64,000 nucleotides of DNA from Phormidium sp. OSCR (GTDB lineage Bacteria; Cyanobacteriota; Cyanobacteriia; Cyanobacteriales; Geitlerinemataceae). Under the pieces are notes generated by a model. That model saw only the letters and a program-made list of their open reading frames with translations. It did not search any database and was not told the DNA's origin. Of this stretch, positions 42,320 through 59,714 are shown piece by piece (within the stretch, counting starts at the first letter, position 1; every line of letters starts with the position of its first letter). The translations under genes and the position numbers were made by a program. The stretch spans positions 1 to 64,000 of the forward strand of contig LJZT01000010.1 in assembly GCA_001314905.1 (NCBI GenBank). The letters run 5' to 3'.

Positions 42320-42322
42320 ACC

Positions 42323-43834
42323 ATGGCACTTTATTTAATTGGCATTGGGGGAACTGGGGCCAAATGTATTGAATCCACCCTACAGCTTGCCGCTGTCGGA
42401 CTCTTTGATGAGCAACCCATTCGGGTCTTGTTTGTTGATGCTGACGAAACCAATGGCAACTTAACTCGCGCTCGTCAGAGTCTAACCACCTATCAGACTG
42501 CCTATCAGCTCTCCCTCAGCGAACCCACACAGTATCCTTGGATGAGGACACCAGTTGAATCCTATGGAGTTTGGTCGCCGTTTGATGATGTCGATACGGA
42601 CAAACAGCTTGGGGCGTTTTTCCAATACAATAGCCTGAGCGTTAATCAAAACAACGAAGCCCTCGCTGGCTTGTTCAATGTTTTATACACCCAAGAAGAA
42701 CGAGAAACTGCCCTAGATGTAGGATTTCGAGGTCGTCCGGCGATTGGCGCAGCCATCATGAGTCAGGTGGGGATAGAAAAGTTTGAGAAGCAGCCCTGGA
42801 ACAGCCTCATTGAGGAGATAAGACGTGATGCCGGGGGAGGAAAAACCGTCCGAGTCTTTCTCTGTGGCTCAATTTTTGGTGGCACAGGAGCAGCTGGCTT
42901 ACCAACCATCGGACGCCTGATTTCTGACCAGCTCAAACGAGAAGATCAGCGAGAAAAAGTCAAAATTGCAGGCTTGTTCATGCTGCCCTACTTTAACTTC
43001 GCCCCCACAAGCGTTGGGGAGTCTGAAGCAAAAGTCTATGCCCGTTCTGAAAAGTTTTTGCTCAACACAGAAGCGGCACTGCGCTATTATAATAGGCAGT
43101 CGCGGGAATGCTTCGATCGCATCTATCTGCTGGGAAATCAGAACTTATCCCCAGTTGAGTTTAGCGTAGGTAAGAACACCCAGCGGAATCAGCCACACTT
43201 TTTGGAAATCTACGGAGCCTTGGCGATTCGAGAGTTTGAGTTAGCCTCTGACATTCAGTCAGGACAGGTTGGCATTATGGCTCGTCAGAGAACAGGCAAC
43301 CTGAACTGGGACGATTTGCAAAACAGCAAAATTAAAGGGGAACTCGTCACAGCCACCCGCTTCGCCTATGTTTGGCTCTCTAACATCGATCCTGAACTGC
43401 AAGAAGCCAAAGATATAGGGGTGGGGGCATTCCAAAGGCGGGCGCCTTGGTTTACTGACTTTTTTAAGCCCATGACTCGATTTTTTAGGTCAGAGAGTAA
43501 GTCATTGCCTGACTTTAATGATGAGAGGGAACAGGAGAAGATTCAAAACATTACCGATTGGTGTCAGGACTATCTCCGCTGGTTGTCAGAGATTCATGAC
43601 TGTGAGAGTGACAGCGTCAGGCTCTTTGATGTCAGTTCCTTCAAAAATCCCAATCAGTTACCTCGGGAGGGTCAGTTGTCCAATTTGATTGTGGATGATC
43701 GTCGAGAGCAAAACCTGAAGCGGCGAGACACAATCGACCGACTCAAGGAAAAACTTGATCCGAATAGCTTGAACGCCCCAAAAGAAGGTACTGTAGGAGT
43801 AGCAAAAGCGCTGTACCGTGTCTGCCAATTATAG
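42323..43834 (+). CDS. Tubulin-like GTPase (Tubulin_2-type)
   Basis: 503 residues. The N-terminus LIGIGGTGAKCIES (GIGGTGAK at 7-14) and the VLFVDAD strand look like the first nucleotide-binding loop of the FtsZ/tubulin fold. GSIFGGTGAAG (182-192) matches the tubulin signature G-G-T-G-[ST/A]-G. After about residue 330 similarity is lost; the C-terminus is charged. It could polymerise or act as a regulatory GTPase. Relatives of this divergent tubulin group are known from genome surveys but not characterised in cyanobacteria. The gap to the next gene is 89 bp. Confidence 0.78.
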   Translation: MALYLIGIGGTGAKCIESTLQLAAVGLFDEQPIRVLFVDADETNGNLTRARQSLTTYQTAYQLSLSEPTQYPWMRTPVESYGVWSPFDDVDTDKQLGAFFQYNSLSVNQNNEALAGLFNVLYTQEERETALDVGFRGRPAIGAAIMSQVGIEKFEKQPWNSLIEEIRRDAGGGKTVRVFLCGSIFGGTGAAGLPTIGRLISDQLKREDQREKVKIAGLFMLPYFNFAPTSVGESEAKVYARSEKFLLNTEAALRYYNRQSRECFDRIYLLGNQNLSPVEFSVGKNTQRNQPHFLEIYGALAIREFELASDIQSGQVGIMARQRTGNLNWDDLQNSKIKGELVTATRFAYVWLSNIDPELQEAKDIGVGAFQRRAPWFTDFFKPMTRFFRSESKSLPDFNDEREQEKIQNITDWCQDYLRWLSEIHDCESDSVRLFDVSSFKNPNQLPREGQLSNLIVDDRREQNLKRRDTIDRLKEKLDPNSLNAPKEGTVGVAKALYRVCQL

Positions 43835-43923
43835 CCGTCACACTATAAAAAAAGTAATAGTTCATAGAATGCAGCCACAGTTATGGTAGGATGATTCAGA
43901 GTAAATAGGTGATCGATGAGAAA

Positions 43924-45720
43924 ATGACTGTACCTAGATCCATCTTGCGGCTCTTGACAGCGGGGACTACGTTATTAATTGCTTCCTTATGTCCTCCAGG
44001 AAGCCTCATGGTGGGCAAACTTCTCTTAAGTGAAGACGCTTTAGAGTCGATGCTAGAAGTCATTGCTAGTGTCGCAGCGGGTAATACAGCGAATGCCCTT
44101 GAGGCTTTACCAGCTTTAGGAGAAGATGACGGAAAATCTCTTTCCTTGGAAAATGAACATTTAACGCAAACGGTGGGGAAGGCGATCGCCGCTTTGATTT
44201 ATACTGAAGCGAAACAACAGTCTGGTGACATCCATGAGCACCTAAAAAAAGTTGCTAAACATACCAAAAATAACTGGGTTAAAATTTCTAGAGAGGAATT
44301 AAAGAATCTAGAACCCAGTTACCCAGAGTTAATGGAGATCAAGGTGGGCGACGTGATCACCCCAACTCCAACTAAACTTACTCATGAGACTTGCATGACT
44401 GTCCCAAAATGGAGGGAACTATTCGAGCGCTTAAATTCTGAAATTAAATCTAAAGTGAATTTGCCTTCAGGTGTTATCAATAACATCGCCAAAAAACTTT
44501 ACTATCATTTCCCTAAAGCTTTACGAGAAGCCCTCAAAGCAGACTTTACTCAACAGGGAGAGGCGTTTGCAGGATTAATGCTGAGTCTACTCACAGAAAC
44601 CAAGGATCGGTTGGTCCGGTTACAAAAAGAGCAGAGAGGCGACTTTAGGCAGGTTTTCAATGGACTCCAGGAAATTGACCTACGATTAAAGAATATACAA
44701 CATGGACAAGTTAAAGTTTTCAAGGTTTTATCAAGAAGGCTTGATTCTGGATTCTATAAACTCCTTAAAAGCTTAGGATGTATTGAGTCTGAAATAACAG
44801 AAATATGGAAAAAACTCGACGAAAATCGGGAATATTTAAGCTCAATAAAAGAAGGAGTTTTTTTCATAAAAGAAGATACAAAAGAAATAAAAGAAAAGCA
44901 AGAACTAACCTATCAACTTATACTAGAAGATTCACTTCCTAAGCGAGTTCATCAGTGTTTACTAAACTTTGATTATCAAAAACAAGAGTATGAGTTTGAC
45001 GAATTTATCAAGTCAACTCAATTAGGAATATGTATCGTTAATGGCTTACAAAAATGCGGACAGCCTTGGTTTCTTTATCGGATGTTTCAAACGAAATACT
45101 ATTTTGATGACACCTCGACACCATTCAACAAGATTAGCTGTTTTTCACGAACACAAAAACTATCTTTAAAAGAAGAGATATGCCACTTCTTCAGGCTACC
45201 CGTAAACGAGAGCATAGAGAGAATATATCAAGAAATTGCCAATCACCTAGAACATAAGAGCTTAGTGTTTATTGTAAAAAATATCCACTTAACAACGCAA
45301 GAGTACCTGGATTATTTTGTCAAACAATTCTGGATTCCTTTAGTTCAGTTGTATCAGCAGCAACCTCCCAACAATCCAGAAAATAGATTACTATTTTTAT
45401 TGGTTGACTTAGAGGGAGTCAGCCATCACTGGGAGATGTCTAGTGAGCAAGAACTTCTGTCCCATTATAGATCTCACACAATCTATAGACTCAAACAAAT
45501 AAAACCTCTATCCTGGGCAGAAAGACAAGATTGCCTAAAGCAATTGGCTTGGGATTTAAAACGTCAAAAAATACCAGATGAAATCAGCCAAAAAGTCATT
45601 AAAAATCATGCTCAACTAACCGAAAAATTTGTTCCACATGAAACCGTTTTAGAATATATTTGTAACTGCTGCAACATAGATTGGGGAGACATTGAGTCTA
45701 AATGGAAACGCTACTACTAG
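43924..45720 (+). CDS. Protein with inactive-STAND-like C-terminal domain
   Basis: 598 residues from the ATG at 43924 (a GTG at 43909 is possible). Residues ~1-60 are hydrophobic then helical; ~90-340 are mostly helical with coiled-coil character (LKNIQHGQVKVFKVLSRRLD). The C-terminal ~250 residues start LNFDYQKQ and contain GICIVNGLQKCGQPWFLYRM where a P-loop would be: the Lys-Ser/Thr of Walker A is replaced by Gln-Pro. This is the hallmark of iSTAND modules found beside MoxR-VWA pairs. It overlaps the MoxR gene by 19 bp. The codons are AT-rich. It is probably the sensor/adaptor; N-terminal function unknown. Confidence 0.72.
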   Translation: MTVPRSILRLLTAGTTLLIASLCPPGSLMVGKLLLSEDALESMLEVIASVAAGNTANALEALPALGEDDGKSLSLENEHLTQTVGKAIAALIYTEAKQQSGDIHEHLKKVAKHTKNNWVKISREELKNLEPSYPELMEIKVGDVITPTPTKLTHETCMTVPKWRELFERLNSEIKSKVNLPSGVINNIAKKLYYHFPKALREALKADFTQQGEAFAGLMLSLLTETKDRLVRLQKEQRGDFRQVFNGLQEIDLRLKNIQHGQVKVFKVLSRRLDSGFYKLLKSLGCIESEITEIWKKLDENREYLSSIKEGVFFIKEDTKEIKEKQELTYQLILEDSLPKRVHQCLLNFDYQKQEYEFDEFIKSTQLGICIVNGLQKCGQPWFLYRMFQTKYYFDDTSTPFNKISCFSRTQKLSLKEEICHFFRLPVNESIERIYQEIANHLEHKSLVFIVKNIHLTTQEYLDYFVKQFWIPLVQLYQQQPPNNPENRLLFLLVDLEGVSHHWEMSSEQELLSHYRSHTIYRLKQIKPLSWAERQDCLKQLAWDLKRQKIPDEISQKVIKNHAQLTEKFVPHETVLEYICNCCNIDWGDIESKWKRYY

Positions 45721-46667
45721 GTCAAAATAATTTGCCTCTCTATACCGGAAAAGTTCATCCTCCTCGGGAATACAGAAATAAGCAAGGACAAATGCTCTAT
45801 CCTTACTTACCCAGTAAGGAGCTAGTGGAAGCTGTTAACCTAGCCATCACCCTACAACGTCCTTTACTGCTTCAGGGAGAACCCGGTTGTGGAAAAACCA
45901 AGTTAGCCCAAGCTGTCGCCTACGAATTAGGCCTTCCTTATATTGCTTGGACAATCAAATCAACCAGTAGAGCGCAAGATGGATTATACACTTATAATAG
46001 TTTGGCACAGTTACGTGATGCTCAATTACTAGCTCTCAATCGTTTAGGGACTGAGGAGACAAAGCCAGACCTGTACGACCCGACCATCTATCGAGAATGG
46101 GGACCCATCGGTCAAGCGTTTAAAAATCTAAAGCCTACTGTTTTACTAATTGATGAAATTGACAAGGCAGACATTGACTTTCCCAATGATTTACTATTAG
46201 AGTTAGAGGAGAATAGGTTTACAGTTTCGGAGACTGGGGAAGAAGTTTTTGCACAACATCCGCCAATTATTTTTATTACAAGTAATCAAGAACGGGATTT
46301 GCCAGATGCTTTTTTACGTCGATGTATTTTCAAATACATCGAATTTCCGAGTCCCGACGAGTTAATCAATATTATTATTGCTCGTTTTTGGGGTGTTCCA
46401 GAAAATGAATATGAGATTCCTGACGACTATGAATTTATTGAAGAAGTTGTCAGGAAATTTATAGAGTTACGCAGGATTTTGCAGGAAGAGAAAGGGAGAT
46501 CATCTAAAAATGTGACGACCAGTGAATTACTTGATTGGTTTGATATTTTACGTCGTCATCCTCAAGAGAAAATCCTGAAGCAATTAGACGGCAAGCTTCC
46601 ATATCTGGGAGTTTTACTCAAAAATTGGGATGACCATCGCCGTTATATGAAACGACTGGGATCATGA
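45702..46667 (+). CDS. MoxR-family AAA+ ATPase
   Basis: 321 residues. Walker A GEPGCGKT (59-66), Walker B VLLIDEIDKAD (Asp151-Glu152), sensor 1 FITSN and an arginine-finger region (DAFLRRC). The typical MoxR insert (SRAQDGLYTYNSLAQ) is present. MoxR ATPases act as chaperones that work with a VWA protein; the VWA gene follows with a 4-bp overlap. It overlaps the iSTAND-like gene upstream, so three genes form one coupled unit. Confidence 0.92.
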   Translation: METLLLGQNNLPLYTGKVHPPREYRNKQGQMLYPYLPSKELVEAVNLAITLQRPLLLQGEPGCGKTKLAQAVAYELGLPYIAWTIKSTSRAQDGLYTYNSLAQLRDAQLLALNRLGTEETKPDLYDPTIYREWGPIGQAFKNLKPTVLLIDEIDKADIDFPNDLLLELEENRFTVSETGEEVFAQHPPIIFITSNQERDLPDAFLRRCIFKYIEFPSPDELINIIIARFWGVPENEYEIPDDYEFIEEVVRKFIELRRILQEEKGRSSKNVTTSELLDWFDILRRHPQEKILKQLDGKLPYLGVLLKNWDDHRRYMKRLGS

Positions 46668-47878
46668 AAATAAACAACTTACCTCTGCAAGACTTGTTTA
46701 ATAAACTGCGTGAATCCGGATTCATCTTAGGGGTTGATGACTATGAACTGTTGCTACAAGCTTTAATGTCAGGGTTTGGAATATCGCAAAAACACCCCTT
46801 AGAGTCTTTGGCAAGAGTTTGTAAATTGTTATGGGTTAAATCTCCTCAAGAGATAGCAACTTTTGACCATTACTTTGATTTAATCATGTCTCAAGACATC
46901 TTCAGGGAAACCGTCATCATCGATGAACCCATTGCAGAACAACCAGCAAAACCAGAACCAATTTCATCTCCAAGTCCTTCTCCTGAGAACTCAGAACCCC
47001 AATTTTCTGAAAGTCAAGTCATTAATCCTGAATTGGACTCTCCCAATCCTCCCCCAGAAGAGGATTTATCTCAGGATAGAGATCCTGAAGAAGACACCAT
47101 ACCTGATTTAACCCTAAATATCAACGATGAGGTGCAAGTTGCGAAAACGAAACAGAGTCAAAACACTTATTGGGAAGCTAGCCATCATAAGGAGTCTCAT
47201 GAGGTTGGTCATGAGACAAATAACTACTTATTGTATTCAGATTATCTACCGATAACGGCGAGAGAAATGAAGCAAAATTGGCGTTATTTACGTCGTTTGA
47301 GGCGAGAGGGAGCAGCAACTGAACTAGATGTAAAAGCCACCGTTAAACAGGTTGCTCAAGAGGGTTTTTTCTTTTCTCCTGTTTTAGTTCCTCAACGAAT
47401 TAATCGGGTTGAGTTAATATTTTTATTAGATATTGATGGGTCTATGGTTCCTTTCCACTCCCTAGGAGAGCGACTTCAGGAAACAGCTATTCGGGGAGGA
47501 CGTTTGGGAAGATCACACCTTTATTATTTCCATAATTGTCCCGTCGATTATCTCTATAGTGATTCAGAACAACGAGAAGCTGAACGATTGGAAGACTTGT
47601 TACCCCAGTTATCCCATAGTCATTCATGTTTACTAATCTTCAGTGATGCGGGAGCTGCTAGAGGGGGCTATAGTAAAAATAGGCTAGAACGAACCGAATG
47701 GGTTTTACAACAGTTTCAACAGCGATTGCGTTATCTAGCTTGGCTCAATCCCGTTCCCTCAAGCCGTTGGCGGAATACAACAGCAGAAGAGATTGCCAAG
47801 TTAGTCCCAATGTTTCAATGTAATCGCTCCGGATTACAAAATGCAATAAAAGTTTTAAAAGGTCATTTTATGGTTTAA
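46664..47878 (+). CDS. VWA-domain protein, partner of the MoxR ATPase
   Basis: 404 residues. The N-terminal ~80 residues are helical; a Pro/Glu-rich linker (~90-160) follows; then a helical part, and a VWA domain from about residue 245. The MIDAS reads FLLDIDGSMV (Asp256, Asp258, Ser260), i.e. D-x-D-G-S rather than D-x-S-x-S, and the IFSDAGAARGGY strand carries the later Asp. Start codon overlaps the stop of the MoxR gene (ATGA). After it a 125-bp gap precedes the large Hsp70-like gene. Confidence 0.88.
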   Translation: MKINNLPLQDLFNKLRESGFILGVDDYELLLQALMSGFGISQKHPLESLARVCKLLWVKSPQEIATFDHYFDLIMSQDIFRETVIIDEPIAEQPAKPEPISSPSPSPENSEPQFSESQVINPELDSPNPPPEEDLSQDRDPEEDTIPDLTLNINDEVQVAKTKQSQNTYWEASHHKESHEVGHETNNYLLYSDYLPITAREMKQNWRYLRRLRREGAATELDVKATVKQVAQEGFFFSPVLVPQRINRVELIFLLDIDGSMVPFHSLGERLQETAIRGGRLGRSHLYYFHNCPVDYLYSDSEQREAERLEDLLPQLSHSHSCLLIFSDAGAARGGYSKNRLERTEWVLQQFQQRLRYLAWLNPVPSSRWRNTTAEEIAKLVPMFQCNRSGLQNAIKVLKGHFMV

Positions 47879-48003
47879 TAAATCATTAGATTCAGTACTC
47901 AAATAATTTATAATGCCTCAAAAAATTAAACTCAAAATAAATACTGTGATCAAATTAATGCCCTTTAACCTTAGTTCACCCAAAACAAGTTATCACATAA
48001 ATT

Positions 48004-51000
48004 ATGGATATCGAAGCTGCCCAACACCACATCCAAGCCTTTGAAAAAAAATTTGGAACTCCCCATCTTCACTTAGCCTATCATGCTGCATTACCCTTAG
48101 CCCTGACCCCCGATCTACTCTATCGTATTTGGGCAAACTTTCAAACCGATATCCACAACCAACCTCTGAATATTCCCTGGATTGCTGTTGCAGACTTGAT
48201 GTTATCTAATCTTTGCGATGAAGTGGGTCGCGAAACCTTTGAAATGGATGCTACTCTTCGCCAAGAACTTCTAAATCAGTTCAAGCAGCATCCAAGATTT
48301 ACACCAAAAAGAGTCAAACAAACGGCTGGATTATTATTAGCCTATATTCGCCAAGATCTGCGTAGTTCAAACCCTTATTATAGAAATTTTGCCGAGTCTC
48401 AACGTTGGGCCGCTTTAGCTTATATCAAACCCAAACAATCTGTTCGGTTGTTAGCAGAAGAATTTGAAAGAGCTTATCAGCAAAATCCCAGAGATTTAAT
48501 TCGCATCGCCTCTCTCACTGAACTTCTACATCAAGATATGCCTGAGTTTGAAAGGCTTCTAATCTTTGCCCGTGCCATGGGACATTACTACCACAAAAGA
48601 CTTGAACCTGGACAACAAGAATTCATGAAGCTCCCTCTTCGAGGCAATCGTGTAGAGATAACTGATGAAATCTATTTGAAAATCCCCCCTGAGTTTATAA
48701 AAAGTTTGCAAGAAAAACAGGAAGTTGAGCAACCCGTAAATCAAGAGAATAAACCAATGCAAAATGAAGAAAGATTTTCTTTGTTTCAAAACCCAGGACA
48801 GATTGATGAACTATCATTGTTACTCCCAAGACTAAAATTGTACGGTGACGTTCAAGTTGGGGATCAAGTTGGTGTTTGGCAGATGCGCGCTCGGACAACC
48901 TTTGATAATGTTGCCTCAAGTTTAGACTATCAAGCCCCGGAAGAAGTCAAAGACATTAGTGCCCTCCCTACCATGTGGGCGCGACCTCTCTCCTTTGAGA
49001 TGGCATTACATAACCCAGAATTTCCAATTCGAGATCAGGTCATTCCCCAATGGCGAGGAATGCTGGCTGCCATTGCTTTGGCAGAAGTGCGATCATTTCC
49101 CCTAAAGGCGAAACGGCTTAGACTGGATCAAGTTGATAACCCGTTCTCTAAAGCCCTATTTCAATTTCTACCCGAGCCCAACGCAGTCCTTTACTCGGCT
49201 GACGGTGAAAATCCTTGGAAGGATATTTATATTTTCAACTGGAATGGTCAACCCGTAGGTATGACCTCACCAAGTACCCTCGTGGTCACTTCAGAGGAAG
49301 GGCAATGGACTAGGCTACCTTGGTGGCAAAATGGGCAACTCCAAGACCCCGTTCGCTTCCTTAATGACAATGAAAAAGCACTGTTCTGGCGGTGGCTTGA
49401 CAATTTACTTGTTGAAATCAACCGGCATCAAGGGAAAGGGAACGCTATCGAGAAAATGACCGGGCTAGTGAAAGAATTTCGCGATAGTCTGGGGAGCGCA
49501 CCTCAGCAGAACTTGAGTCTCAGCAACAATCCTCAGTTTTTCGGAGTCCCCATTAACATTGGAGTATTAAAAGCACTTAACCAGCCCGTCGAAGCGGAAG
49601 CTCAACCCTCCAACGTCCGATTAATTCCCAGCCCTGACAAAGAAAATCTACCCGATCTCCTAATCGTCGATCCTGAGATTGCTGAAGCCTGGAATCAGCC
49701 TCCTCAAAATGTCTGGATTTATGATAATAGAACCCTGGCTTCATTTCAGCTCCAGGGGCAAACTTTGGGTCAACTTGATAATCGCTCCGTTCGGGTCTTA
49801 CAAGCCAAAGATCTATTTCTACCTGAATTAGCTTTTTTGGAAATCGAGGATGCTCTTCCGGGAGCCTTGTTACCCTCTAGTCCTCAAAACCTTCGTTTTA
49901 ATGGTGAGGCGATTACACCTCTGTTGCCCCTAAATCCAATTCTCTTGGAATACCTCAACCCTCAAGACTTGATGAACAAGGTGGTTAGTCTGGAAGGACT
50001 AACGGTTGACGGGGAAGGAGCCAAAGTCAGGGTTGTTTTGGATTTGCCGCTCTCAGGGATGAATCCAGACAGCCAAAAGCCTGAGAACTACCGCGTCTAT
50101 AAGGATTATGTTCTCAAGGAAGAGAATATAGTCATAGATGTACCCGTCTTGCAAGTTTGGCCCAATTTCCAGTTGACGAGTTGGACGCACTATTATGGCT
50201 TTTACTATGATGGTCAGTTAGCAGAAGACACGTTCCGAGTTAACTTTCCTGAAGCCACGGACGTTTACCCCTTCGAGGAAAAGTTGGGAAATTACCAAAT
50301 TGTCAGGTTTAAAAGCTTTCCCACCTATGTTGAGTGTCTGAGCGAGTATAATGAGTTGCAAGGTTTAATTGTTTTAAGTCCTCCCGAGACAGTCAAGCCA
50401 ACAGGTGACTGGAAAATTGGCGTTGATTTCGGAACTTCATTCACTAACATTTATGTGAATCGTCAAGGGCGCGTTACTGGCCCTCTTCCCTTAAATAATC
50501 TCCAATTGCAGGTAACCAATGTGCCTGACGATACCAGAGTCAAAACCCTATTTGAGTTCTTTGTTCCTGAAAATTTTGTGCCTGAAGAAAAGCCCTTACC
50601 ACTGTCATCTGTATTGACAAATCGAGGGTTCCGAAAAGACGCAGGAGAAAAGTTAGATAATTTAGATCCCATCTTTGATGGGAGAGTTTATGTGCCGGAG
50701 TTGGGAAATTTCCGCCCCGAGCAAGATTTCATCAAGACTGACTTAAAATGGTCTGCTAAAAATCTTGCCTATAATCGCCTGTTTTTGAAACATTTAGCTT
50801 TACACATTACAGCAATGGCGGTTCAAGATGAAGGGGGGGCGCGACGTATACAATGGTGTCTCTCCTACCCATCGGCATTTTCTCGGCGTGACCAAAGAAG
50901 GTTGGCTTCTGTTTGGCAGTCAATTACCGAAGAGCTAGCACAAAGTACAGGAGTAAAGCATGGGTGTCCAAGCATACAAGATTTAACGCATTTTCGTCCA

Positions 51001-52065
51001 GAGAGCTTAGCCATTGCTCAGTATTTTGCAGATAAGGAAGGCCATAACTTAGTTAGCAGTACCTGCATTGATTTGGGGGGAGGAACCTCGGATATTTCGA
51101 TTTGGGAACGAAATACACTCATTCACCAATGCTCGGTTCAGCTCGCAGGTCGAGACTTGTTCTCCCAGTTTATTTCCCGCAAACCCGATTTCATCCTGAA
51201 GCACTTTGAGCAAGATAAATCCCAGTGGTCTGAACTTGAAGGTCCTGCATTCAATGCCAAGTTGGATGTTCTTTTGCGAAATGACAGTGCCAACTGGTTG
51301 AGAAATAAGCGCAGCTTCGTTGAGGAGGAGCCAGAATTTCAGGGACTGCTGCAACTAATGGCCCTTGGTTTTTCCGGTCTCTACTACTATATCGGGACGT
51401 TGTTGGGGGTGCTACATCAAGAAGGAAAATACAGTGACCCACAAATTACCCCCGTCTATATCGGTGGAAATGGCTCTCAACTACTGAACTGGCTAGCGGA
51501 GGATGGTCGATTTGATCCTGACTCAGAAATTAATGCGCTTTTAAGCAAGATGTTATGTGAAGGCTCTCAGTTTAAGGATACTGAGGAGCCAACGCGCCTG
51601 AGCCAACGTCCCAAGGATGAGGTAGCCTGTGGTCTAGTCCTCAGTCAAAGTAAGCTGAAGGGGTTAGAGCGAGAAACGGAAGACCTCCTCATTGCCGGAG
51701 AAGATTGTGAAATCAATGGTCGGCGTATCCAGTTTAATGAACGGTTAGACCTTGGGGAAGAGAACGTCAGTCAATTTGAAGTTCCTGAACTTGCACAACT
51801 GGCGTTATTTGTCAATTCTTTCCAGCGAGCTATCAAAACCTTACGGATTGAGGGGATTCTACCCTTGGCAGACTATACCATCACCGATGACTATGAGGAG
51901 CAACTGGAGGAAAATGGCCCGTTGTGGCGTGAGGTGCAACGGGAATTGACCGCTATCCTGATTAAAATGAAGGGAGAGTCACCCGATGATATTCGGGTTG
52001 AACCACCCTTTATTCTGGCCTTAAAAGCTCTCTTGCAGGTTTTAGGTAAGAGGTGGGTGGGGTAG
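48004..52065 (+). CDS. Giant Hsp70/actin-fold protein (SrfB-like)
   Basis: 1353 residues. The N-terminal ~260 residues are helical; ~260-800 is a large unannotated beta-rich part. The C-terminal ~550 residues form an Hsp70/actin ATPase: phosphate-1 IGVDFGTSFTNIYVN (Asp808), phosphate-2 CIDLGGGTSDISIWE (Asp1023) and adenosine motif VYIGGNGSQLLNWL. Layout and size recall the SrfB virulence-factor family, whose function is unknown. No substrate-binding domain of DnaK type is present. It is the centre of the cluster and likely an ATP-driven switch or scaffold. Downstream is a hairpin, then four genes for the repeated-domain proteins. Confidence 0.8.
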   Translation: MDIEAAQHHIQAFEKKFGTPHLHLAYHAALPLALTPDLLYRIWANFQTDIHNQPLNIPWIAVADLMLSNLCDEVGRETFEMDATLRQELLNQFKQHPRFTPKRVKQTAGLLLAYIRQDLRSSNPYYRNFAESQRWAALAYIKPKQSVRLLAEEFERAYQQNPRDLIRIASLTELLHQDMPEFERLLIFARAMGHYYHKRLEPGQQEFMKLPLRGNRVEITDEIYLKIPPEFIKSLQEKQEVEQPVNQENKPMQNEERFSLFQNPGQIDELSLLLPRLKLYGDVQVGDQVGVWQMRARTTFDNVASSLDYQAPEEVKDISALPTMWARPLSFEMALHNPEFPIRDQVIPQWRGMLAAIALAEVRSFPLKAKRLRLDQVDNPFSKALFQFLPEPNAVLYSADGENPWKDIYIFNWNGQPVGMTSPSTLVVTSEEGQWTRLPWWQNGQLQDPVRFLNDNEKALFWRWLDNLLVEINRHQGKGNAIEKMTGLVKEFRDSLGSAPQQNLSLSNNPQFFGVPINIGVLKALNQPVEAEAQPSNVRLIPSPDKENLPDLLIVDPEIAEAWNQPPQNVWIYDNRTLASFQLQGQTLGQLDNRSVRVLQAKDLFLPELAFLEIEDALPGALLPSSPQNLRFNGEAITPLLPLNPILLEYLNPQDLMNKVVSLEGLTVDGEGAKVRVVLDLPLSGMNPDSQKPENYRVYKDYVLKEENIVIDVPVLQVWPNFQLTSWTHYYGFYYDGQLAEDTFRVNFPEATDVYPFEEKLGNYQIVRFKSFPTYVECLSEYNELQGLIVLSPPETVKPTGDWKIGVDFGTSFTNIYVNRQGRVTGPLPLNNLQLQVTNVPDDTRVKTLFEFFVPENFVPEEKPLPLSSVLTNRGFRKDAGEKLDNLDPIFDGRVYVPELGNFRPEQDFIKTDLKWSAKNLAYNRLFLKHLALHITAMAVQDEGGARRIQWCLSYPSAFSRRDQRRLASVWQSITEELAQSTGVKHGCPSIQDLTHFRPESLAIAQYFADKEGHNLVSSTCIDLGGGTSDISIWERNTLIHQCSVQLAGRDLFSQFISRKPDFILKHFEQDKSQWSELEGPAFNAKLDVLLRNDSANWLRNKRSFVEEEPEFQGLLQLMALGFSGLYYYIGTLLGVLHQEGKYSDPQITPVYIGGNGSQLLNWLAEDGRFDPDSEINALLSKMLCEGSQFKDTEEPTRLSQRPKDEVACGLVLSQSKLKGLERETEDLLIAGEDCEINGRRIQFNERLDLGEENVSQFEVPELAQLALFVNSFQRAIKTLRIEGILPLADYTITDDYEEQLEENGPLWREVQRELTAILIKMKGESPDDIRVEPPFILALKALLQVLGKRWVG

Positions 52066-52085
52066 GTCCGGCTCACACCCCGATT

Positions 52086-52107
52086 CTGGGGGACTTATAT
52101 CCCCCAG
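52086..52107. terminator. Hairpin after the Hsp70-like gene
   Basis: CTGGGGG and CCCCCAG pair perfectly around ACTTATAT, 20 bp after the stop codon. No T-run follows. It may be a partial terminator that tunes the dose of the four downstream genes. Confidence 0.4.
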
Positions 52108-52192
52108 GCTCGATAGCCAGTTCCTGTATGAGTGGATACCTAAGTATTTCATTTTTCCTCAAAACAGTAATTAATTTTGTAAATTCGTCAAT

Positions 52193-53170
52193 ATGTCTCA
52201 AATAAAATGTCCAGTTTGTGATACTACTAATGAGCTGGTTCCTGCCGAAGTAAAGCAATGCAAGTCCTGTGGATTTCCTTTAATTGATGAGTTTAATAAT
52301 ACTGCTTTTTTGTCGTGCCTACATCATGACATATCAGAATGGTCAAGACACCTATGGAATAATCTGAAAGAAAGAGACAAAAAAATAGAAGATCTTCGAA
52401 CAGAGTTGGCTCAGCTTAAGGAAAATCTGGGTCAGACGAGTCAGGCAGCACAACAAGATGATTCGGTGATCGAGGCAAGTCAGCCAGAAATTGGTCGAGA
52501 AAATATCGACGATTTATGGAAGCAATTTGAACCTTATGTCAATCAGGAAATTAAGAAGCAACAAGACGCCTTAGCTGAAAATTTCCGCAAGGATCTTAAG
52601 CAAATGAGGGCGGAAATTGAAAAGTATATTGAAGCTAGATTGAAAGATCAGACCCATATAGATTCACCAGATCAGACTCAGCGGGGTCATGACTCTGGCT
52701 CCTCGGAAACATCAAGTGACACCTTGTCTTCTCTAAAACCAGATAGGATAGATGTGGATACAAACATCCCATCTTCTAAAGTCACTTTATCAAGTGAAGG
52801 TTCACAGTCCCATGGTTGGTCTTGGCTTTATGAGAGTAAAACTGATGATGTAATTGTTGTTTCTCCAGATAATATAAAAGAAATGCGTGCTAAAGATGTG
52901 CCTATTCTTTTAACACAACAGACGCGAGGTAACTACTGGATTATAAGAGATCCATCCAGCAGCCGTCTCTGTCTAGCACCGCAACCAAAGATCAGCTTTA
53001 ATGAACACAACATTGAGTTTACAAAGAAAATCTTTGAATGTCAAAACTATGATGACTTGAAGCGACAAAGATTCGAGGTTATAAAACCAGCTTTTGTAAA
53101 ACAACTAGAGACGGAAGAAAAATGGGAAATACAGGAAAAAGGAGAATTAGTTTTTATTAGTAAAACTTGA
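52193..53170 (+). CDS. Zinc-ribbon protein with one copy of the repeated unknown domain
   Basis: 325 residues. An N-terminal zinc ribbon has two CxxC knuckles (CPVC at 6-9, CKSC at 23-26). Coiled coil follows at ~50-150 (KKIEDLRTELAQLKENL, and a second stretch), then a Ser/Asp linker. The unknown domain is at ~212-325: GNYWIIRD, then LCLAPQ, FECQNYDD, FEVIKPAFV, and W-E-I-x-E-K-G-E-L-V-F at the end. Named functions cannot be given. It is the first of four plus-strand genes with the domain. Confidence 0.72.
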   Translation: MSQIKCPVCDTTNELVPAEVKQCKSCGFPLIDEFNNTAFLSCLHHDISEWSRHLWNNLKERDKKIEDLRTELAQLKENLGQTSQAAQQDDSVIEASQPEIGRENIDDLWKQFEPYVNQEIKKQQDALAENFRKDLKQMRAEIEKYIEARLKDQTHIDSPDQTQRGHDSGSSETSSDTLSSLKPDRIDVDTNIPSSKVTLSSEGSQSHGWSWLYESKTDDVIVVSPDNIKEMRAKDVPILLTQQTRGNYWIIRDPSSSRLCLAPQPKISFNEHNIEFTKKIFECQNYDDLKRQRFEVIKPAFVKQLETEEKWEIQEKGELVFISKT

Positions 53171-53208
53171 TATTTTAGCTTTGAAAAACCATATACTTTG
53201 GACTGCTT

Positions 53209-54459
53209 ATGTTAGATGAAAGCAAGATAAAACAAATACCAACAAGTAGCGATGAGCAGAAAACCTATGATGATTTGCGTGAGGTTCAGCATGGTACAAT
53301 TCTGTTTGAGTCTCAGCAAGAACTCATCTCTATTCTAGAATCGTTTCTTACCCGTCTGGAGAAGGTTGAGACCGACAATCATCAATTGACCGAGCAAGTC
53401 AACCAGTTAAATCGCGATATCGTTGAACTTCAGCAAAAAGTTAGTCTTGAATCTCTGGACGATGGTGGTTCAGAAGCCAAGCTAGAGAACCAATCAGGTG
53501 TTTCTCCTAACCCTGCGGATGAAGCTGCGTTAGTGAACCTTTATAATAGAACCCCGAAAACGGTCAAAAGAAAGGCGGCCAAAGTGGGGGTCATCATCCA
53601 TAGAGTTCGAGGAGATGAAACGTTATTAGACATCGAAGCTAACCAACATGGCTACTGGTTAGTGAATGAAATCTATCTCGTTCCCAAGCAACCGTCACGA
53701 TACAACGAATATAACTTACCGACCCTAGAAGCTTTATTTGTCTGTCATAATGTACAGCAGTGCAACAAATATTTTAACCTAATTAAGCCGGCTCGTATCA
53801 GTCCCAGCTCCAGTCCGGACTCTTCTCAGACCTGCTCAGTCCACACTTGGAGGCTACTAGAAAAGGGTACACTAGAATTTAGTGAAACCAAGAGCAGCCC
53901 AAGCAGCCGCCTAATTGAAACTCCAAGTACTACACCTGAGGACGCATCGACCAATCCAGAACCAGCAGCAGAAGAGCCGACCCCAAAACTTAACCCAGAG
54001 AATGAGCCTGATTTCCAGGAGAGCCAAGAGTTAATGACGCCAGTCCCTTCTGAGCCAACTCCTGATCCTGAAGAGGAAGCTCCTGAACTCACTCCCCAAG
54101 AGCAAGAATTTCTGGAGATGTATCATAGTAGCCATCACACAGAATTTCGGAAAACCATTAAAGCAACCTGTTCCTTGGATGCCGATCAAGAGTCGTCAGA
54201 ACACTGTTCACTTAAAGCCGATCGATGGGGGGATTGGTACATCTGTCGATACTCGGATGTTGATTATTTAACTCCTTCTAATATGTTGGTTGTCAACCAA
54301 ACCACACTTCCGCTGCATAAAAAACTCATGAAGATAACTTATTCTGATTTTTTATATCCCGAGGAATTTCGATTAGTTAAGCCAGGACGTGTCAAGCGAA
54401 ACCGCACAGCTAAGCGATGGGAAGTTACAGAAAAGGGGGTGCTAGAAATTTACACCTAA
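53209..54459 (+). CDS. Protein with two copies of the repeated unknown domain
   Basis: 416 residues, no membrane segment. A helical/coiled stretch (~30-82) precedes copy A at ~107-228 (GYWLVN, YLVPKQ, FNLIKPARI, W-R-L-L-E-K-G-T-L-E-F). A Pro/Glu/Thr-rich linker (~230-295) and copy B at ~300-416 (GDWYICRY, DYLTPS, FRLVKPGRV, W-E-V-T-E-K-G-V-L-E-I) follow. Copy B has the aromatic pair swapped (WY for YW). The copies are only distantly similar, so the duplication is old. The gap to the previous gene is 38 bp. Confidence 0.72.
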   Translation: MLDESKIKQIPTSSDEQKTYDDLREVQHGTILFESQQELISILESFLTRLEKVETDNHQLTEQVNQLNRDIVELQQKVSLESLDDGGSEAKLENQSGVSPNPADEAALVNLYNRTPKTVKRKAAKVGVIIHRVRGDETLLDIEANQHGYWLVNEIYLVPKQPSRYNEYNLPTLEALFVCHNVQQCNKYFNLIKPARISPSSSPDSSQTCSVHTWRLLEKGTLEFSETKSSPSSRLIETPSTTPEDASTNPEPAAEEPTPKLNPENEPDFQESQELMTPVPSEPTPDPEEEAPELTPQEQEFLEMYHSSHHTEFRKTIKATCSLDADQESSEHCSLKADRWGDWYICRYSDVDYLTPSNMLVVNQTTLPLHKKLMKITYSDFLYPEEFRLVKPGRVKRNRTAKRWEVTEKGVLEIYT

Positions 54460-54517
54460 GATGCCACTTTATTTGTCAAGTTTTGTATTTTTAGTTGAGG
54501 TTTAGGTAAGGCTAATT

Positions 54518-55621
54518 ATGAACGATCATCGTATATCTCCCATTGCTTACTTAGTTCTAATTTCAAGTTTACTTTTAGTTTTAGCCTTTGTAGCTCCTCA
54601 ATTATGGAGTCAGCCATCAACCCGTTCTTCTGAAGGGGATAACAGTCCTCTGGTTTCGGAGATGAAACAAATATTATCCGAAAGATTCCCCTCTGTATTA
54701 TCAATAGAGTCCCCCGCTGTAGAACCATCTCCTGTGAGTCCTCCCACTGAAAATGCCACACAGCAGGATGCTGCTGATCAGAGACAGTCCTCTCCTGGTG
54801 AGAATCAAGTCCTTCAAAAACTTGATGAACTTGTAAGTCAGAATGACCAACTACGGTTCGAAATCCGCCGCTCTGGTCTTATGCTTTTCGTGTTAATAAT
54901 TTTAAATTTCGTACTAATATTTGTGAGTATATTAAATTTAAGAATACCTAGATTTTTTAAATCTAACTCACCGAGAAGGGAACGTCCTCCATTGGCCCAA
55001 GATAGCCCGTCTTCTCCAAGCATTTATGGGTCTACTACATCGACTGGCTGGGAATCTCGTTCTGGTACAACCAATCCTGCAACAACCTCGACTCAACAAG
55101 GTCAACCACCACCCAGTTCATCATCAAGATATAAGCCAGGGTTAGGACCAGCCGCACACATTCCACAACCTTCTCCCAAACCTTCTCAACCCTCAGTTCC
55201 ACAACAGACTCCAGCATCTTCACCAAGCCCTTCGATATCCTCCAATGAAGCTCAAAATATTGTTGCGTTATATAACAAAAGAGCGAGAGAACTGAAACAA
55301 AATTCCACTTCTGTATCAATCCCTAAAGAAACCCTAAATCAGATTAGGTCTGGACAGTCAGTTCCGATGAGTTTTACTCCAGACAATAATGGAAATTATT
55401 GGCTGGTACCATCTAAGACAAGTTATTTAAACTACTTAGTTCCAAAAGAAAAGCTAGTTATCAATGAAAATACCTTCGACTCATTAAGTCAAATATTTCA
55501 CCATCAAAACTATAGTACTACTCACGCGAGAAACTATCGCCTAATTGAGCCAGCCCAAGTTCAGCAAATTTCTGCCAATCAGTGGCAGTTAGTCAGGCGT
55601 GGTCAAATTGTATTTGGTTGA
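54518..55621 (+). CDS. Membrane protein with the repeated unknown domain
   Basis: 367 residues. One hydrophobic segment at ~7-28 and a second at ~116-140 (LMLFVLIILNFVLIFVSIL) flank an acidic part with a short coiled coil. A Ser/Pro-rich linker (~150-240) then leads to the unknown domain at ~250-367 (GNYWLVPS, YLVPKE, FHHQNY, YRLIEPAQV, W-Q-L-V-R-R-G-Q-I-V-F). Ties the soluble set to the membrane. It is 58 bp after the previous gene. Confidence 0.72.
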   Translation: MNDHRISPIAYLVLISSLLLVLAFVAPQLWSQPSTRSSEGDNSPLVSEMKQILSERFPSVLSIESPAVEPSPVSPPTENATQQDAADQRQSSPGENQVLQKLDELVSQNDQLRFEIRRSGLMLFVLIILNFVLIFVSILNLRIPRFFKSNSPRRERPPLAQDSPSSPSIYGSTTSTGWESRSGTTNPATTSTQQGQPPPSSSSRYKPGLGPAAHIPQPSPKPSQPSVPQQTPASSPSPSISSNEAQNIVALYNKRARELKQNSTSVSIPKETLNQIRSGQSVPMSFTPDNNGNYWLVPSKTSYLNYLVPKEKLVINENTFDSLSQIFHHQNYSTTHARNYRLIEPAQVQQISANQWQLVRRGQIVFG

Positions 55622-55686
55622 CATTCTCTCTTCACTCATAGCATTTGGCAGAATGGTAGTTACATTATAGTAAGCATCAATCACTC

Positions 55687-57699
55687 ATGGATTCAAACTT
55701 TGTCACACAGACCCTACAATCTTTTCAGAAAGCACTCGATGTTTCAGGAAACAACCTAAAAATTATTCAACAACTCGAAGAACGATTCAAAGAACTTGAG
55801 CGAGCCTTCAATCGTAGTGGACTGAAAAATGCTGTTCGAGTCAGCGGCGCGATGGAAGTTCCCAAAATTAACCGATTGGAGATTTCAGCACCTGAGTTGA
55901 TTGAGACGTGTAATAATGTCCCACAGGTATTTGCGCCAAGTGTTATCCCAGTGACCGTGACCTCAGAAACTTATCGGGGCTTGTCTGATTCAGCAGTTCT
56001 TGAAATCAATAAGCATGGAAGTTATTGGATTATTGCCAATACCGAGGAAACCTACTGGCTTGTTCCGAACATCAATATTCGCTTGAATCCTCACCGAATG
56101 AAAACGTTAGCCATGCTGTTTACCTGTCAGGATGAAAGCAAAGCGAATATTGACAAGTTTACATTGCTTGAACCAGCTCAGCTTAAAATGATGCCCAATC
56201 AAAAAGAATGGCATTTAGTGAAAACGGGGGTTTTACAGTTTGGCACAGCTTCTCAGTTAGGTTCAGATCAAGATATTAAAAATTTAGACTATAACCTACA
56301 AAAACTTCAGTCTAACTACGAGACCTTAACCGCAAATATTGAGCTGTTATTGAAGGCAAATGAACAAGTACAAAAAGATTTAAACCATGCCGTTTTGGCA
56401 CGGCAACAAATCAATCGAGAGATTAGTGACTTACACCAAGCCAAACACAGTTTAAAGAAAAATATACTCCAGTTAGAGGAAAATATAGACATCAAACTGC
56501 AACAAGTCCTTGACCAAAATGCTGAGAGCCAACTGGTTACAGAGAACACAGCACCGAGTCAAGAAGTGACGGTAACTTCAGACGACTCAACATCCCTAGA
56601 TGAGCCATTTTCCGAAAATAACATAGAGCCGTCTCTTGAGGAAGAGCTGTATTTTGAGGAAGAAGAGAGTGAAGACGTAGAAGATAATTTTCCCGATGAA
56701 GTAGCTGAAGATGAAGATCCATCGTTCCAAAATGTCCAGTCTCTACAAATTGATGAGCAATCTAGTGACGAGGTACCGACTCTCGTAGAGAATCATGATC
56801 CCCAACAGCCAGTTCGGATTCTCCAAGGACATAGTAGTACTGTTAAATCTTTGGTCGTCACACCCTTAAAAAAAGACCCTGGACATTTTTCACTATTGAG
56901 TGCCAGTTTTGATAATACCATTCGTATCTGGAATCCGTTAGTCGCTCAGGAAATTGGCTGCTTGAAAAATGATGCTTTTCTAAATTCAATTGCCTTAAGT
57001 CCTGATGCTAGGATGATTGTAGGAGGAGGGCAAAGTGAAGTCATTAAGCTTTGGAATCTTAACAATTCCCAAAAAGACTATTTTGAGGGACATAGCCAAT
57101 CTATTTTAGATGTGGCGTTGTCTCCAGATGGCAACCATCTAGTCAGTGGAAGCCGTGACACAACCATTATAATTCGTGACTTTCCAGATGGGACAATTAA
57201 GCACCACCTAAAACCTGACGACGATTTAGTGTTGTCTGTTACAATTGACCCGATGAATAGCTTGTTAGCCACGGGTCATTCGACGGGAGTTATTAACCTC
57301 TGGGAGTTACAAGAAGGCACATTAATTGATCAATACCAACAACACTATCAATCAGTTTGGTCACTAGCCTTTAGTCAAGACAGTGATTTTTTGGCTAGTG
57401 TGAGCAGCGATAAAACCTTAAAAGTATGGGATATAGCAAATTGCAAACTTTTATATCAGGTTGGCAATGAATTTAGTATTCTCGCTGTTGCTATCAGTGG
57501 GGATGGGCAGTATATAGCGACAGGTGACTCGGGAAATCAGGTTAAAATCTTTAATTTCATGACTGGAGAAGAATTAACCACTCTCATGGGTCATACTAAA
57601 GAAGTTTATGCTCTTGTGTTTAGTCCAGATAATCAATACTTGCTGAGTGGAGGGCGTGACACAACCATTGCAATTTGGCAAGTTCCTGATATTTCTTGA
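55687..57699 (+). CDS. WD40 propeller protein with the repeated unknown domain
   Basis: 670 residues. The unknown domain is at ~98-196 (GSYWIIANT, YWLVPN, FTCQDE, FTLLEPAQL, W-H-L-V-K-T-G-V-L-Q-F). Coiled coil (~205-285) and a Glu/Asp-rich acidic linker (~295-370) follow, then seven WD40 repeats to the end (for example FDNTIRIWNP, RDTTIIIRDF, SDKTLKVWDI, RDTTIAIWQV), enough for one propeller. WD40 domains usually bind proteins, so this could be the hub or target-recognition part. It is last in the run. Confidence 0.8.
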   Translation: MDSNFVTQTLQSFQKALDVSGNNLKIIQQLEERFKELERAFNRSGLKNAVRVSGAMEVPKINRLEISAPELIETCNNVPQVFAPSVIPVTVTSETYRGLSDSAVLEINKHGSYWIIANTEETYWLVPNINIRLNPHRMKTLAMLFTCQDESKANIDKFTLLEPAQLKMMPNQKEWHLVKTGVLQFGTASQLGSDQDIKNLDYNLQKLQSNYETLTANIELLLKANEQVQKDLNHAVLARQQINREISDLHQAKHSLKKNILQLEENIDIKLQQVLDQNAESQLVTENTAPSQEVTVTSDDSTSLDEPFSENNIEPSLEEELYFEEEESEDVEDNFPDEVAEDEDPSFQNVQSLQIDEQSSDEVPTLVENHDPQQPVRILQGHSSTVKSLVVTPLKKDPGHFSLLSASFDNTIRIWNPLVAQEIGCLKNDAFLNSIALSPDARMIVGGGQSEVIKLWNLNNSQKDYFEGHSQSILDVALSPDGNHLVSGSRDTTIIIRDFPDGTIKHHLKPDDDLVLSVTIDPMNSLLATGHSTGVINLWELQEGTLIDQYQQHYQSVWSLAFSQDSDFLASVSSDKTLKVWDIANCKLLYQVGNEFSILAVAISGDGQYIATGDSGNQVKIFNFMTGEELTTLMGHTKEVYALVFSPDNQYLLSGGRDTTIAIWQVPDIS

Positions 57700-57902
57700 G
57701 GACTGACTGATGATTGGGACACTAACGTGATTAGTAAATCCGTGGAAAGATAAGCTGCCGTTATTTACGCTAGAGCATCCTAAAACCATCGATAGGTCTG
57801 CATTGGATGAATTTTACATTTCGATACATCACACATCAAGTTGTAGGTCAACGCTGGGCCAGCTAAGTCCTATCGGTGCTACTGTCCCCAAACCCCCCAC
57901 CG

Positions 57903-57944: not shown

Positions 57945-59714
57945 ATGACCTTCACGTTTCTTCGCCGCCATCGCCGCCTTCTCCTTCATAGCCTTGGTCG
58001 ATTGAGCCTGATTAGTATCACCGCCGTCAGTATCGCCACCATCTCCAATTGGGCCAATTATCGCAACTACTCGAAGGGAACGATGTTTCGGGTAGAAACC
58101 GTGGACTTCAACCTTTTAAGCCATAGCTTACCCACCAAACTCTCCTATCTGCTGATTGAAAACCAACCCCAAGAAATTCAAACCACCCTAGAGAGTAACT
58201 ACGGACGATTTGGTTTAGTTGTTACAGATTGTACCAGCGATCGCCCCGACTGTCCCAACCAAACCATCCTCCATCAGTCCCCCCAAACTCCCACCATTTT
58301 TCCCGCAGACTTAGAAAATCATCCCTTCGATCTACTACGAGATCCGCCGCCACTCTTCGCCGAATCAACCTATCGCCAACCCGACCACACAGACCCGATC
58401 GCCACAGGACAAACCAATCCCGGAGACATCATCGGACGCGTCTATTATCTTCGTCACCGTCCCCCCACATTTATTGACGATTATCGCGGCTGGCTCCTCA
58501 ATCCCCTCCAACTCAGCGGTTCTCGTTTTATTTACCTCTTAACCACCATTTTTTTTCTCACCGGTGGGGTCATGACTTGGGTCATGATCGAGATTATTCT
58601 CTATAGTCAACGCAAAAAACGCCAAGAACTGCAACGAGATGCCCAAACCCTCAAACAGCAGCTCGAAAGCCAACTCCAACAAATTCCTAAACTCCTGCAA
58701 GAACGGGAACTCGCTCGCCGCGAACTCGACGCCTACCGAGAAAAGCAGCAACAGCAAACCCAAGACTTGCAGAGCCTCATTGACGACTATGAAACCCAAC
58801 TTTCTGAATTTGAAGAACAGCAACAAGCAAGCGTCCAAACTCTCCAACAATTAGAGCAAGAATTAGCCACCGTTATTGAGTCTCAAACCGAGGCCCAAGA
58901 GCAAATTCAGGAACGGGAGCGCAACATCGCTCAACTCAAAAAAGCTCAACAGGAAAAAGACCAACAGCAATGGGAACGAACGCAAGTTTTAGAACAGTTG
59001 CGCGAAGACCTACAAATTGCTCAAGCCAGAGCCGCCAAAGCTCAACAGGAAACCGAAAAACTCAATCAGATTATTGCCGCTCTCACCGGCGATCGCAACC
59101 TCGCCCAACAGCAATATCAAGAACTCAAACAACAACTCGATCAGGACGTTGATAATCCCGGCTTCAAAAAAGCCCTCGAAACCTCCCGTCGAGAATTAGA
59201 ACGAGTGCAGCAACAAGCTCAAGAACGAGAACTTGAAGTTATCCAAGAAAATGAATATCTCAAAGAAGAACTCGAACAAATCATCGAAGATAATCAAGAA
59301 TTTGAAATGTATGCCCTCGAACAAAATGAACTCTTAGAACAAGAAAAATCAAAGCTCACCCAGCAAAACCTTGAATTACAGGCCAATAAAATCTATATTG
59401 AAGACCGAATACATCAACTTGAAATCTTCGAAGAAGCCATCAAAAATAGTGACCCCGAAGACCGAGAAACACAAGCCCAAATTCATCGCTTAATCTTTTC
59501 AGAAATGCCCCATATCTCAGGGCGACGAATTATTAACGCCCTCAAAAAAATAGGCTTCACCGAAACCCATACCACCGGCAGCCATGCCCACCTCAAAAAA
59601 ACCGAAACCCATACCTGTATCGTTCCCGTCCATCCTGACTTACCCCCCGGAACCCTTAAACATATCCTCAAAGATGCCCGAGTCAGCATCGAAGAACTCA
59701 AAGAGCATCTCTGA
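57945..59714 (+). CDS. Membrane-anchored coiled-coil protein with C-terminal HicA-like domain
   Basis: 589 residues. Two membrane helices (~12-34, ~188-212) bracket an extracytoplasmic domain of ~150 residues (possibly a sensor). A very long coiled coil (~215-510, rich in Gln and Glu) follows. The last ~70 residues match HicA: SGRRIINALKKIGF, TTGSHAHLKK with His547 at the catalytic position, and VPVHPDLPPGTLKHILKDA. HicA is an mRNA-cleaving toxin normally about 60-80 residues long and paired with HicB. No HicB gene lies beside it. It may act in signalling or defence, or the domain may only bind RNA. Confidence 0.8.
   Translation: MTFTFLRRHRRLLLHSLGRLSLISITAVSIATISNWANYRNYSKGTMFRVETVDFNLLSHSLPTKLSYLLIENQPQEIQTTLESNYGRFGLVVTDCTSDRPDCPNQTILHQSPQTPTIFPADLENHPFDLLRDPPPLFAESTYRQPDHTDPIATGQTNPGDIIGRVYYLRHRPPTFIDDYRGWLLNPLQLSGSRFIYLLTTIFFLTGGVMTWVMIEIILYSQRKKRQELQRDAQTLKQQLESQLQQIPKLLQERELARRELDAYREKQQQQTQDLQSLIDDYETQLSEFEEQQQASVQTLQQLEQELATVIESQTEAQEQIQERERNIAQLKKAQQEKDQQQWERTQVLEQLREDLQIAQARAAKAQQETEKLNQIIAALTGDRNLAQQQYQELKQQLDQDVDNPGFKKALETSRRELERVQQQAQERELEVIQENEYLKEELEQIIEDNQEFEMYALEQNELLEQEKSKLTQQNLELQANKIYIEDRIHQLEIFEEAIKNSDPEDRETQAQIHRLIFSEMPHISGRRIINALKKIGFTETHTTGSHAHLKKTETHTCIVPVHPDLPPGTLKHILKDARVSIEELKEHL

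Follow-up and report, generated by a model that had tools for sequence, protein, structure and literature searches.

A repeated domain behind a tubulin-like and actin-like gene pair in a Phormidium genomic island: a candidate docking module of a cyanobacterial membrane machine

What is it that four consecutive genes share, when one of their products carries a zinc ribbon, another membrane helices and yet another a WD40 propeller, and what might such a shared part be for? This is the question raised by positions 52193-57699 of the stretch analyzed here (64,000 nucleotides, positions 1 to 64,000 of contig LJZT01000010.1 of Phormidium sp. OSCR, assembly GCA_001314905.1; hereafter “the window”), in which an earlier note, made from the letters alone, had pointed to a domain of roughly 110 residues occurring five times. 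The five copies are one homologous domain of an undescribed family, for which the label MOD is used below, and their genes follow those of a tubulin-like (TUB) and an actin/Hsp70-like (ACT) protein; MOD probably links membrane-bound and soluble parts into one membrane-associated machine, with a possible role in defence.

All five copies were found in the four genes where they had been claimed to lie, as were the partners named for them: a zinc ribbon (CxxC...CxxC) with coiled coil in MOD protein 1, coiled coil, two membrane helices, and a WD40 propeller in MOD protein 4 (PF00400 E 2.5e-53). Profiles built from four copies each and run against the window open reading frames (ORFs), with E-values scaled to 4500 proteins, recovered the held-out copies 1 to 5 at E 3e-20, 4e-14, 8e-11, 3e-20 and 1e-18, respectively, and no other window ORF at E < 10, while a five-copy profile run against the whole genome returned the five window sites as the only copies at E<=10. 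Some details of the initial description had to be adjusted: its motif string holds as a common pattern, not as an exact one in every copy (copy 3 lacks F-x-[CH] and copy 5 reads WLVP), the domain, with a helix (motif YN) ahead of the first motif given there, is nearer 120 residues in length, and the copy in the WD40 gene, described as internal, occupies the N-terminal third of its protein. A recent tandem duplication is ruled out, as the other window copies share 25-27% identity with copy 1, and each window copy groups in the tree with its counterpart in Phormidium willei BDU 130791 (a near relative, 86-94% identical to the window DNA in shared blocks).

The statement that no named domain fits has held. 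Copies gathered from named genomes number 171, and a set of 132 diverse members served for the family comparisons; the latter gave only single stray matches in Pfam and one in PHROGs, PDB sequences contained no relative (best E 0.14), the window proteins had no MOD match in NCBIfam, one MOD searched against phage records had no match, and no description of MOD with this gene combination was found in the open-access literature. That each copy belongs to a different known family is ruled out as well, there being no family matches and all five copies being mutually homologous.

The AlphaFold2 model of copy 4 (predicted local distance difference test, pLDDT, 95; predicted template modelling score, pTM, 0.86) is predicted to run through a helix, a strand and a helix, and then eight further strands with one helix among these. 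Neither Foldseek against the PDB (best E 0.67), nor a second structural aligner (VIA, Z 2.3 at best), nor the viral structure library BFVD (best E 0.24) offered a clear relative, so the modelled fold appears unmatched in the libraries searched (the PDB and a viral library), which does not prove it new. A confidently predicted, compact alpha+beta fold without known relatives there leaves binding activities open, and MOD could be a small-molecule or nucleotide binder, or an enzyme, whose repetition would serve dose or avidity rather than assembly. The near-invariant positions of the modelled copy (L63, P65, F83, A102, W112 and G118), however, look structural and comprise no conserved catalytic polar residue set, and we hold this explanation to be very improbable.

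More can be learned from the genes just upstream, the TUB/ACT core, which was missing from the earlier note and with which MOD is associated: in about 70 loci, the MOD genes stand behind one conserved core, in the order vWA-like lipoprotein, small membrane protein, TUB, ACT and then 1 to 8 MOD copies (Table 1). The TUB relatives in L116 and L129 likewise exceed the PF13809 cut-off, and the FGGTGA motif of TUB (F-G-G-T-G-A-x-G, invariant in 12 homologs) resembles GGGTG(S/T)G, the glycine-rich GTP-binding signature of the FtsZ-tubulin superfamily. Three motifs that form the ATP site in the actin/Hsp70 superfamily follow one another in the C-terminal half of ACT: GVDFGTSFTN, CIDLGGGTSDIS (phosphate motifs) and GGNGS, all nearly invariant (in 13 homologs, DFGTSxTN for phosphate-1, DxGGGTSDIS for phosphate-2 and GGNxS for adenosine are invariant or nearly so); Pfam matches of ACT to FtsA/MreB are weak. 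For its N-terminal half, modelled confidently at pLDDT 88, the structural comparison gave only a weak match, to an Ig-like sandwich around residues 712-800 (Z 4.1). In the lipoprotein, C56, C64, D85, S89, G92, D196 and C482 are conserved columns, and DGxxSMxG and a later Asp are invariant or nearly so; the protein itself has no significant Pfam match, and a sub-threshold match to VWA_2 was seen in one homolog only. A MOD hidden inside TUB or ACT was also considered, and profile comparison found none.

How tight is this association? A MOD gene lies directly behind ACT in 43 of the 47 cyanobacterial loci that have at least 6 kb downstream of ACT (median gap 57 bp), and two of the four exceptions (L109 and L121) carry divergent MODs right behind ACT. 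The same is true of L120 and, less strongly, of L119, two loci with shorter sequence that stand outside this count. Of 291 sampled cyanobacterial genomes, 24 had a match to the 132-copy profile, in three cases nothing more than a weak or fragmentary one: MOD and ACT occurred together in 19, MOD only in 5, ACT only in 3 and neither in 264 (Fisher p 2e-22, which overstates the linkage because the genomes are counted as independent, with no correction for phylogeny), and some of the MOD-only and ACT-only genomes rest on weak or truncated matches. Lone C-terminal MOD proteins of 536 and 528 residues were seen in two genomes of one genus without ACT (L048:8054-9664 and L051:7961-9547).

The system also comes and goes as one piece. 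When two congeneric genomes (L168 and L169) are compared with the window by blastn, the matches stop at 40148-40160 and restart at 57883-57890; the stretch missing there is exactly the operon, the flanking genes meet at that point, and the system is patchy within one genus, with an empty site. A complete copy resides on a mobilizable 47.5-kb plasmid of Gloeothece verrucosa PCC 7822, next to TIR-domain genes, and Picosynechococcus plasmids hold a divergent copy. Taken together, co-occurrence, synteny and presence or absence as a unit strongly imply one complex or system, and to that extent the earlier note, which had spoken of interchangeable subunits of one complex, was on the right track.

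Interchangeability itself was not borne out as stated, since the architectures are bound to position. The first MOD gene has a C-terminal MOD in 55 of 56 loci and encodes a zinc ribbon in 24; a membrane helix is present in the second in 23 of 36 cases; later ones have, as a tendency, an N-terminal MOD. These N-terminal MODs group in a separate clade (48 rows; Shimodaira–Hasegawa-like approximate likelihood ratio test, SH-aLRT, 95), recovered in a pruned, careful tree at 89 bootstrap / 97, the bootstrap being not fully settled, and because of this separate clade at least two MOD classes (N-class and C-class) are specialised. An exception is copy 2, the first MOD of the two-copy window protein, which lies on the N-terminal side of the other MOD there, yet groups with the C-class. 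In N-class proteins, the MOD is followed by coiled coil and then by WD40 (6 of 48), FGS (L090), a second ACT (L082), a C-class MOD, or no further domain. For 22 C-class copies, the nearest relative is in the same locus, versus about 2 expected by shuffling, which points to duplication or conversion within loci. As the C-class occurs without the N-class in 12 loci, whereas the N-class is found almost only beside it (alone once, a doubtful case), it would be the C-class that is tied to the core. In ten loci there is just one MOD, as a rule at the C-terminus; that of the picocyanobacteria sits behind a membrane helix and coiled coil in one membrane-anchored C-class protein, to which some loci add a second, convergent N-class gene. 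Within-locus exchange or duplication, seen among C-class proteins whose partners differ (e.g., L061, L074, L090 and L092), is what would be expected if MOD proteins competed as interchangeable subunits for one site of one complex, but conserved order and architecture by position, together with the separate N- and C-class clades, make this quite unlikely, and the best reading is that MOD subunits are ordered and specialised, not freely interchangeable.

Where, then, would MOD act, and on what? In 37 of 49 proteins, the last membrane helix has its positive charge on the side facing MOD (p 2e-6), which places MOD on the predicted cytosolic side of that helix. What nearly every locus retains is a C-class MOD adjoining ACT, preceded in its protein by a membrane helix or zinc ribbon, and for this reason the docking of subunits to TUB/ACT by MOD is the simplest account; from these gene arrangements we infer that MOD binds TUB/ACT. 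MODs might instead bind each other, as a homotypic adaptor that recruits sensors and effectors to a core protein in the manner of the effector-associated domains (EADs), which, according to Kaur et al. 2020 (PMC7159879), always place one copy on a core component and have more alike adjacent copies as one hallmark. Like an EAD, MOD is a small domain found in several adjacent genes with different partners; the 22 C-class copies with a same-locus nearest relative fit that hallmark, and in L082, as in L045, MOD is fused directly to a second ACT. The likeness of same-locus copies does not extend between the N- and C-class, which are separate lineages; profiles find no MOD in TUB or the main ACT (the second ACT of L082 and L045 being the exception), unlike the core copy of the EADs portrayed there; and the ten single-MOD loci, as well as the absence of copies elsewhere in the window genome, are awkward for an adaptor of this kind, which we therefore regard as rather unlikely.

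A further clue to purpose is nested within the island, where a cassette separates TUB from ACT; Phormidium willei lacks it and has 64 bp at the corresponding place. PF19995, PF07728 and PF05762 are all above their cut-offs, so that the iSTAND ternary gene set is complete in the window, and its last domain, here termed the carrier domain, recurs in 41 of 149 genomes of the order. The proteins that contain it differ greatly in length, and in those inspected it is followed, as read by eye, by HEAT-like, TPR-like, pentapeptide, FGS or peptidase-like sequence. Calothrix sp. CSU_2_0 has a cassette of this type upstream and a carrier joined to TUB; the TUB and ACT genes are split there, perhaps by assembly errors (L098:285-10049: iSTAND, MoxR, vWA, a Uma2-like gene, the carrier-TUB fusion, and the split TUB and ACT genes). 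Two fusions with two partners, ACT and TUB, suggest independent capture of one machine by a conflict cassette, and it is proposed that in the window genome ACT has been taken over by the iSTAND-MoxR-vWA module and serves as its effector.

Table 1. Coordinates of the genomic island, its genes and its domains in the window.
Feature	Position	Strand	Remarks
Genomic island with the entire system	40161-57882		Flanks about 20 bp apart in two congeneric genomes
Putative lipoprotein, 488 residues	40175-41641	-	vWA-like motif DGxxSMxG; lipobox-like Cys and further conserved Cys; divergently transcribed
Small membrane protein, 155 residues	41852-42319	+	Several hydrophobic helices; conserved in the whole family of loci
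TUB, tubulin-like, Tubulin_2/FtsZl1 kind	42323-43834	+	PF13809 35.5 bits, cut-off 27
iSTAND-MoxR-vWA cassette between TUB and ACT	43826-48812	+	P. willei (L056) match breaks at 43825, restarts at 48813
iSTAND protein	43909-45720	+	PF19995 E 1.8e-14
MoxR-type AAA ATPase	45702-46667	+	PF07728 AAA_5 E 4e-11
vWA (CoxE-type) protein	46664-47878	+	PF05762 E 6e-11
Carrier domain, residues 1-259 of ACT	48004-48780	+	Last domain of the cassette, fused in frame to ACT
ACT, actin/Hsp70-like ATPase	48004-52065	+	Large N-terminal region; phosphate and adenosine motifs
MOD protein 1 gene	52193-53170	+	Zinc ribbon, coiled coil, C-terminal MOD
MOD copy 1	52826-53161	+	Residues 212-323 of MOD protein 1
MOD protein 2 gene	53209-54459	+	Coiled coil and two MODs
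MOD copy 2	53521-53886	+	Residues 105-226 of MOD protein 2
MOD copy 3	54100-54456	+	Residues 298-416 of MOD protein 2; most divergent copy
MOD protein 3 gene	54518-55621	+	Two membrane helices (about residues 5-25 and 116-136); C-terminal MOD, predicted cytosolic
MOD copy 4	55250-55618	+	Residues 245-367 of MOD protein 3; used for the structure model
MOD protein 4 gene	55687-57699	+	N-terminal-class MOD, coiled coil, WD40 propeller
MOD copy 5	55888-56247	+	Residues 68-187 of MOD protein 4; N-terminal class

Because of the patchiness, the island and plasmid carriage and the fusion to a conflict cassette, defence or containment seems the likeliest purpose, and MOD as the cytosolic docking domain of a membrane-associated TUB/ACT machine, probably serving that purpose, is a reading we hold to be evenly balanced between right and wrong. 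Its most serious competitor is a housekeeping or accessory role in membrane remodelling or an envelope cytoskeleton, with no conflict system involved, of the sort suggested for FtsZl1 operons by Makarova and Koonin (PMC2875224): an FtsZl1-type tubulin next to vWA-like and membrane proteins fits their account, and the core is conserved in many cyanobacteria, picocyanobacteria included. Patchy occurrence with an empty site within one genus, plasmid carriage, fusion to the iSTAND cassette and variable FGS/WD40 ends all speak against a plain envelope function, which we would nevertheless treat as a substantial possibility, though not the favoured one. Several points weigh against docking for defence as well: the wide conservation of the core in picocyanobacteria would suit a non-defence role too, PADLOC had no match for TUB or ACT, and a fold with no relative in the searched libraries gives no functional clue. 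In addition, distant TUB-ACT or ACT relatives in an alphaproteobacterial and a Pelagibacteraceae genome (L129 and L132) are accompanied by no recognisable MOD, and a spirochaete locus (L133) has borderline MOD-like traces only (E 0.01-0.06), so MOD is not needed by every TUB-ACT pair. In that Spirochaetaceae metagenome-assembled genome (L133:3195-8309), TUB and ACT are fused into one 1704-residue protein, followed by zinc-ribbon/coiled-coil genes.

If docking for defence is what MOD provides, the machine might work as follows. Around a core of TUB as a tubulin-like GTPase and ACT as an actin/Hsp70-like ATPase, each MOD protein would add a different part: one usually spanning the membrane and carrying a segment outside the cytosol, another holding a zinc ribbon on coiled coil, another joining an N-class to a C-class MOD, and another presenting a variable terminal domain (WD40, FGS or a second ACT) on coiled coil; N-class MODs may attach such a variable sensor arm. 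The vWA-like lipoprotein, presumably outside, and the small membrane protein would complete the envelope side. A signal from the envelope side, or a ligand of the WD40 or FGS domain, could be the input, relayed via MOD contacts to TUB/ACT, whose assembly, driven by nucleoside triphosphates (NTPs), would then act at the membrane, and infected cells might be contained or killed as a result.

As to the wider surroundings, the neighbours of MOD loci are often CHAT-TPR, pentapeptide-FGS, pentapeptide or TIR-AAA genes (L080:13450-16185, L104:14332-15657, L072:7847-10599 and L036:4759-6432), as in other conflict neighbourhoods, and a serine/threonine kinase-like gene, read from sequence, lies near the divergent system of a Picosynechococcus plasmid (L172:16646-18484). 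Just outside the window island, the gene at 57945-59714 encodes 589 residues with hydrophobic helices, a long coiled coil and, at the C-terminus, a HicA toxin-like domain (PF07927 E 1.6e-15); it was considered as a part of the system and rejected, as it stays beside enolase in congeners that lack the system.

Apart from a domain family ready to be named, these results lay out, part by part, the operon of a group of tubulin-like proteins that have been in want of a role since 2010, and they make direct tests possible: do tubulin-like and actin-like proteins work together in a single prokaryotic machine, what brings them to the membrane, and do such machines protect from phages? The carrier fusions to ACT and TUB supply a link to the ternary conflict systems by gene fusion, which goes beyond neighbourhood. 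The boldest version, in which MOD has a new fold and acts as the universal docking domain of a so far undescribed membrane machine of cyanobacteria that combines tubulin-like and actin-like NTPases, has exchangeable WD40/FGS sensor ends and was captured at least twice by MoxR-vWA conflict systems (via ACT and via TUB), is put forward tentatively, as somewhat less probable than its opposite. Were it true, it would be a cyanobacterial counterpart of the tubulin/HSP70 conflict systems, given that GTPase-centric conflict systems are reported by Kaur et al. 2020 (PMC7159879) to be nearly completely absent from cyanobacteria.

How does this system compare with those already described? FtsZl1 operons with vWA and membrane proteins, cyanobacterial FtsZl1 members among them, were reported by Makarova and Koonin in 2010 (PMC2875224), and the window TUB, which exceeds the Tubulin_2 cut-off and adjoins vWA-like and membrane proteins, resembles them; as far as the accessible text of that paper goes, however, neither an actin/Hsp70-like partner nor MOD is mentioned, and the GTPase and OmpA partners it gives for FtsZl1 operons are absent from the window. 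With the GAP1-N2 branch of the GTPase-centric systems, as outlined in the accessible text of PMC7159879, the locus shares tubulin-like and HSP70-like proteins, zinc ribbons, membrane segments, vWA and mobile neighbourhoods, but no window island gene has a Pfam match to DO-GTPase or GAP1, and MOD is not described in that text. A DO-GTPase gene behind the MOD genes of Microcystis viridis ties MOD loci to the GTPase-centric kind; the genes of this kind there (L039:12489-14999, from the genome that also holds L061; one at 35 bits against a Pfam cut-off of 27) are joined by a protein with a weak peptidoglycan-binding match. The iSTAND ternary systems, as presented in the same source, correspond in having iSTAND, MoxR and vWA together with a carrier domain for variable effectors, and differ in that the effector slot is taken by ACT in the window and, in the only other case among the loci examined, Calothrix CSU_2_0, by TUB. 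The system is, then, a new cyanobacterial version of a tubulin/actin-like membrane system, with MOD as a new domain in it; its nearest kinds are the FtsZl1 operons and the tubulin/HSP70 branch of the GTPase-centric systems.

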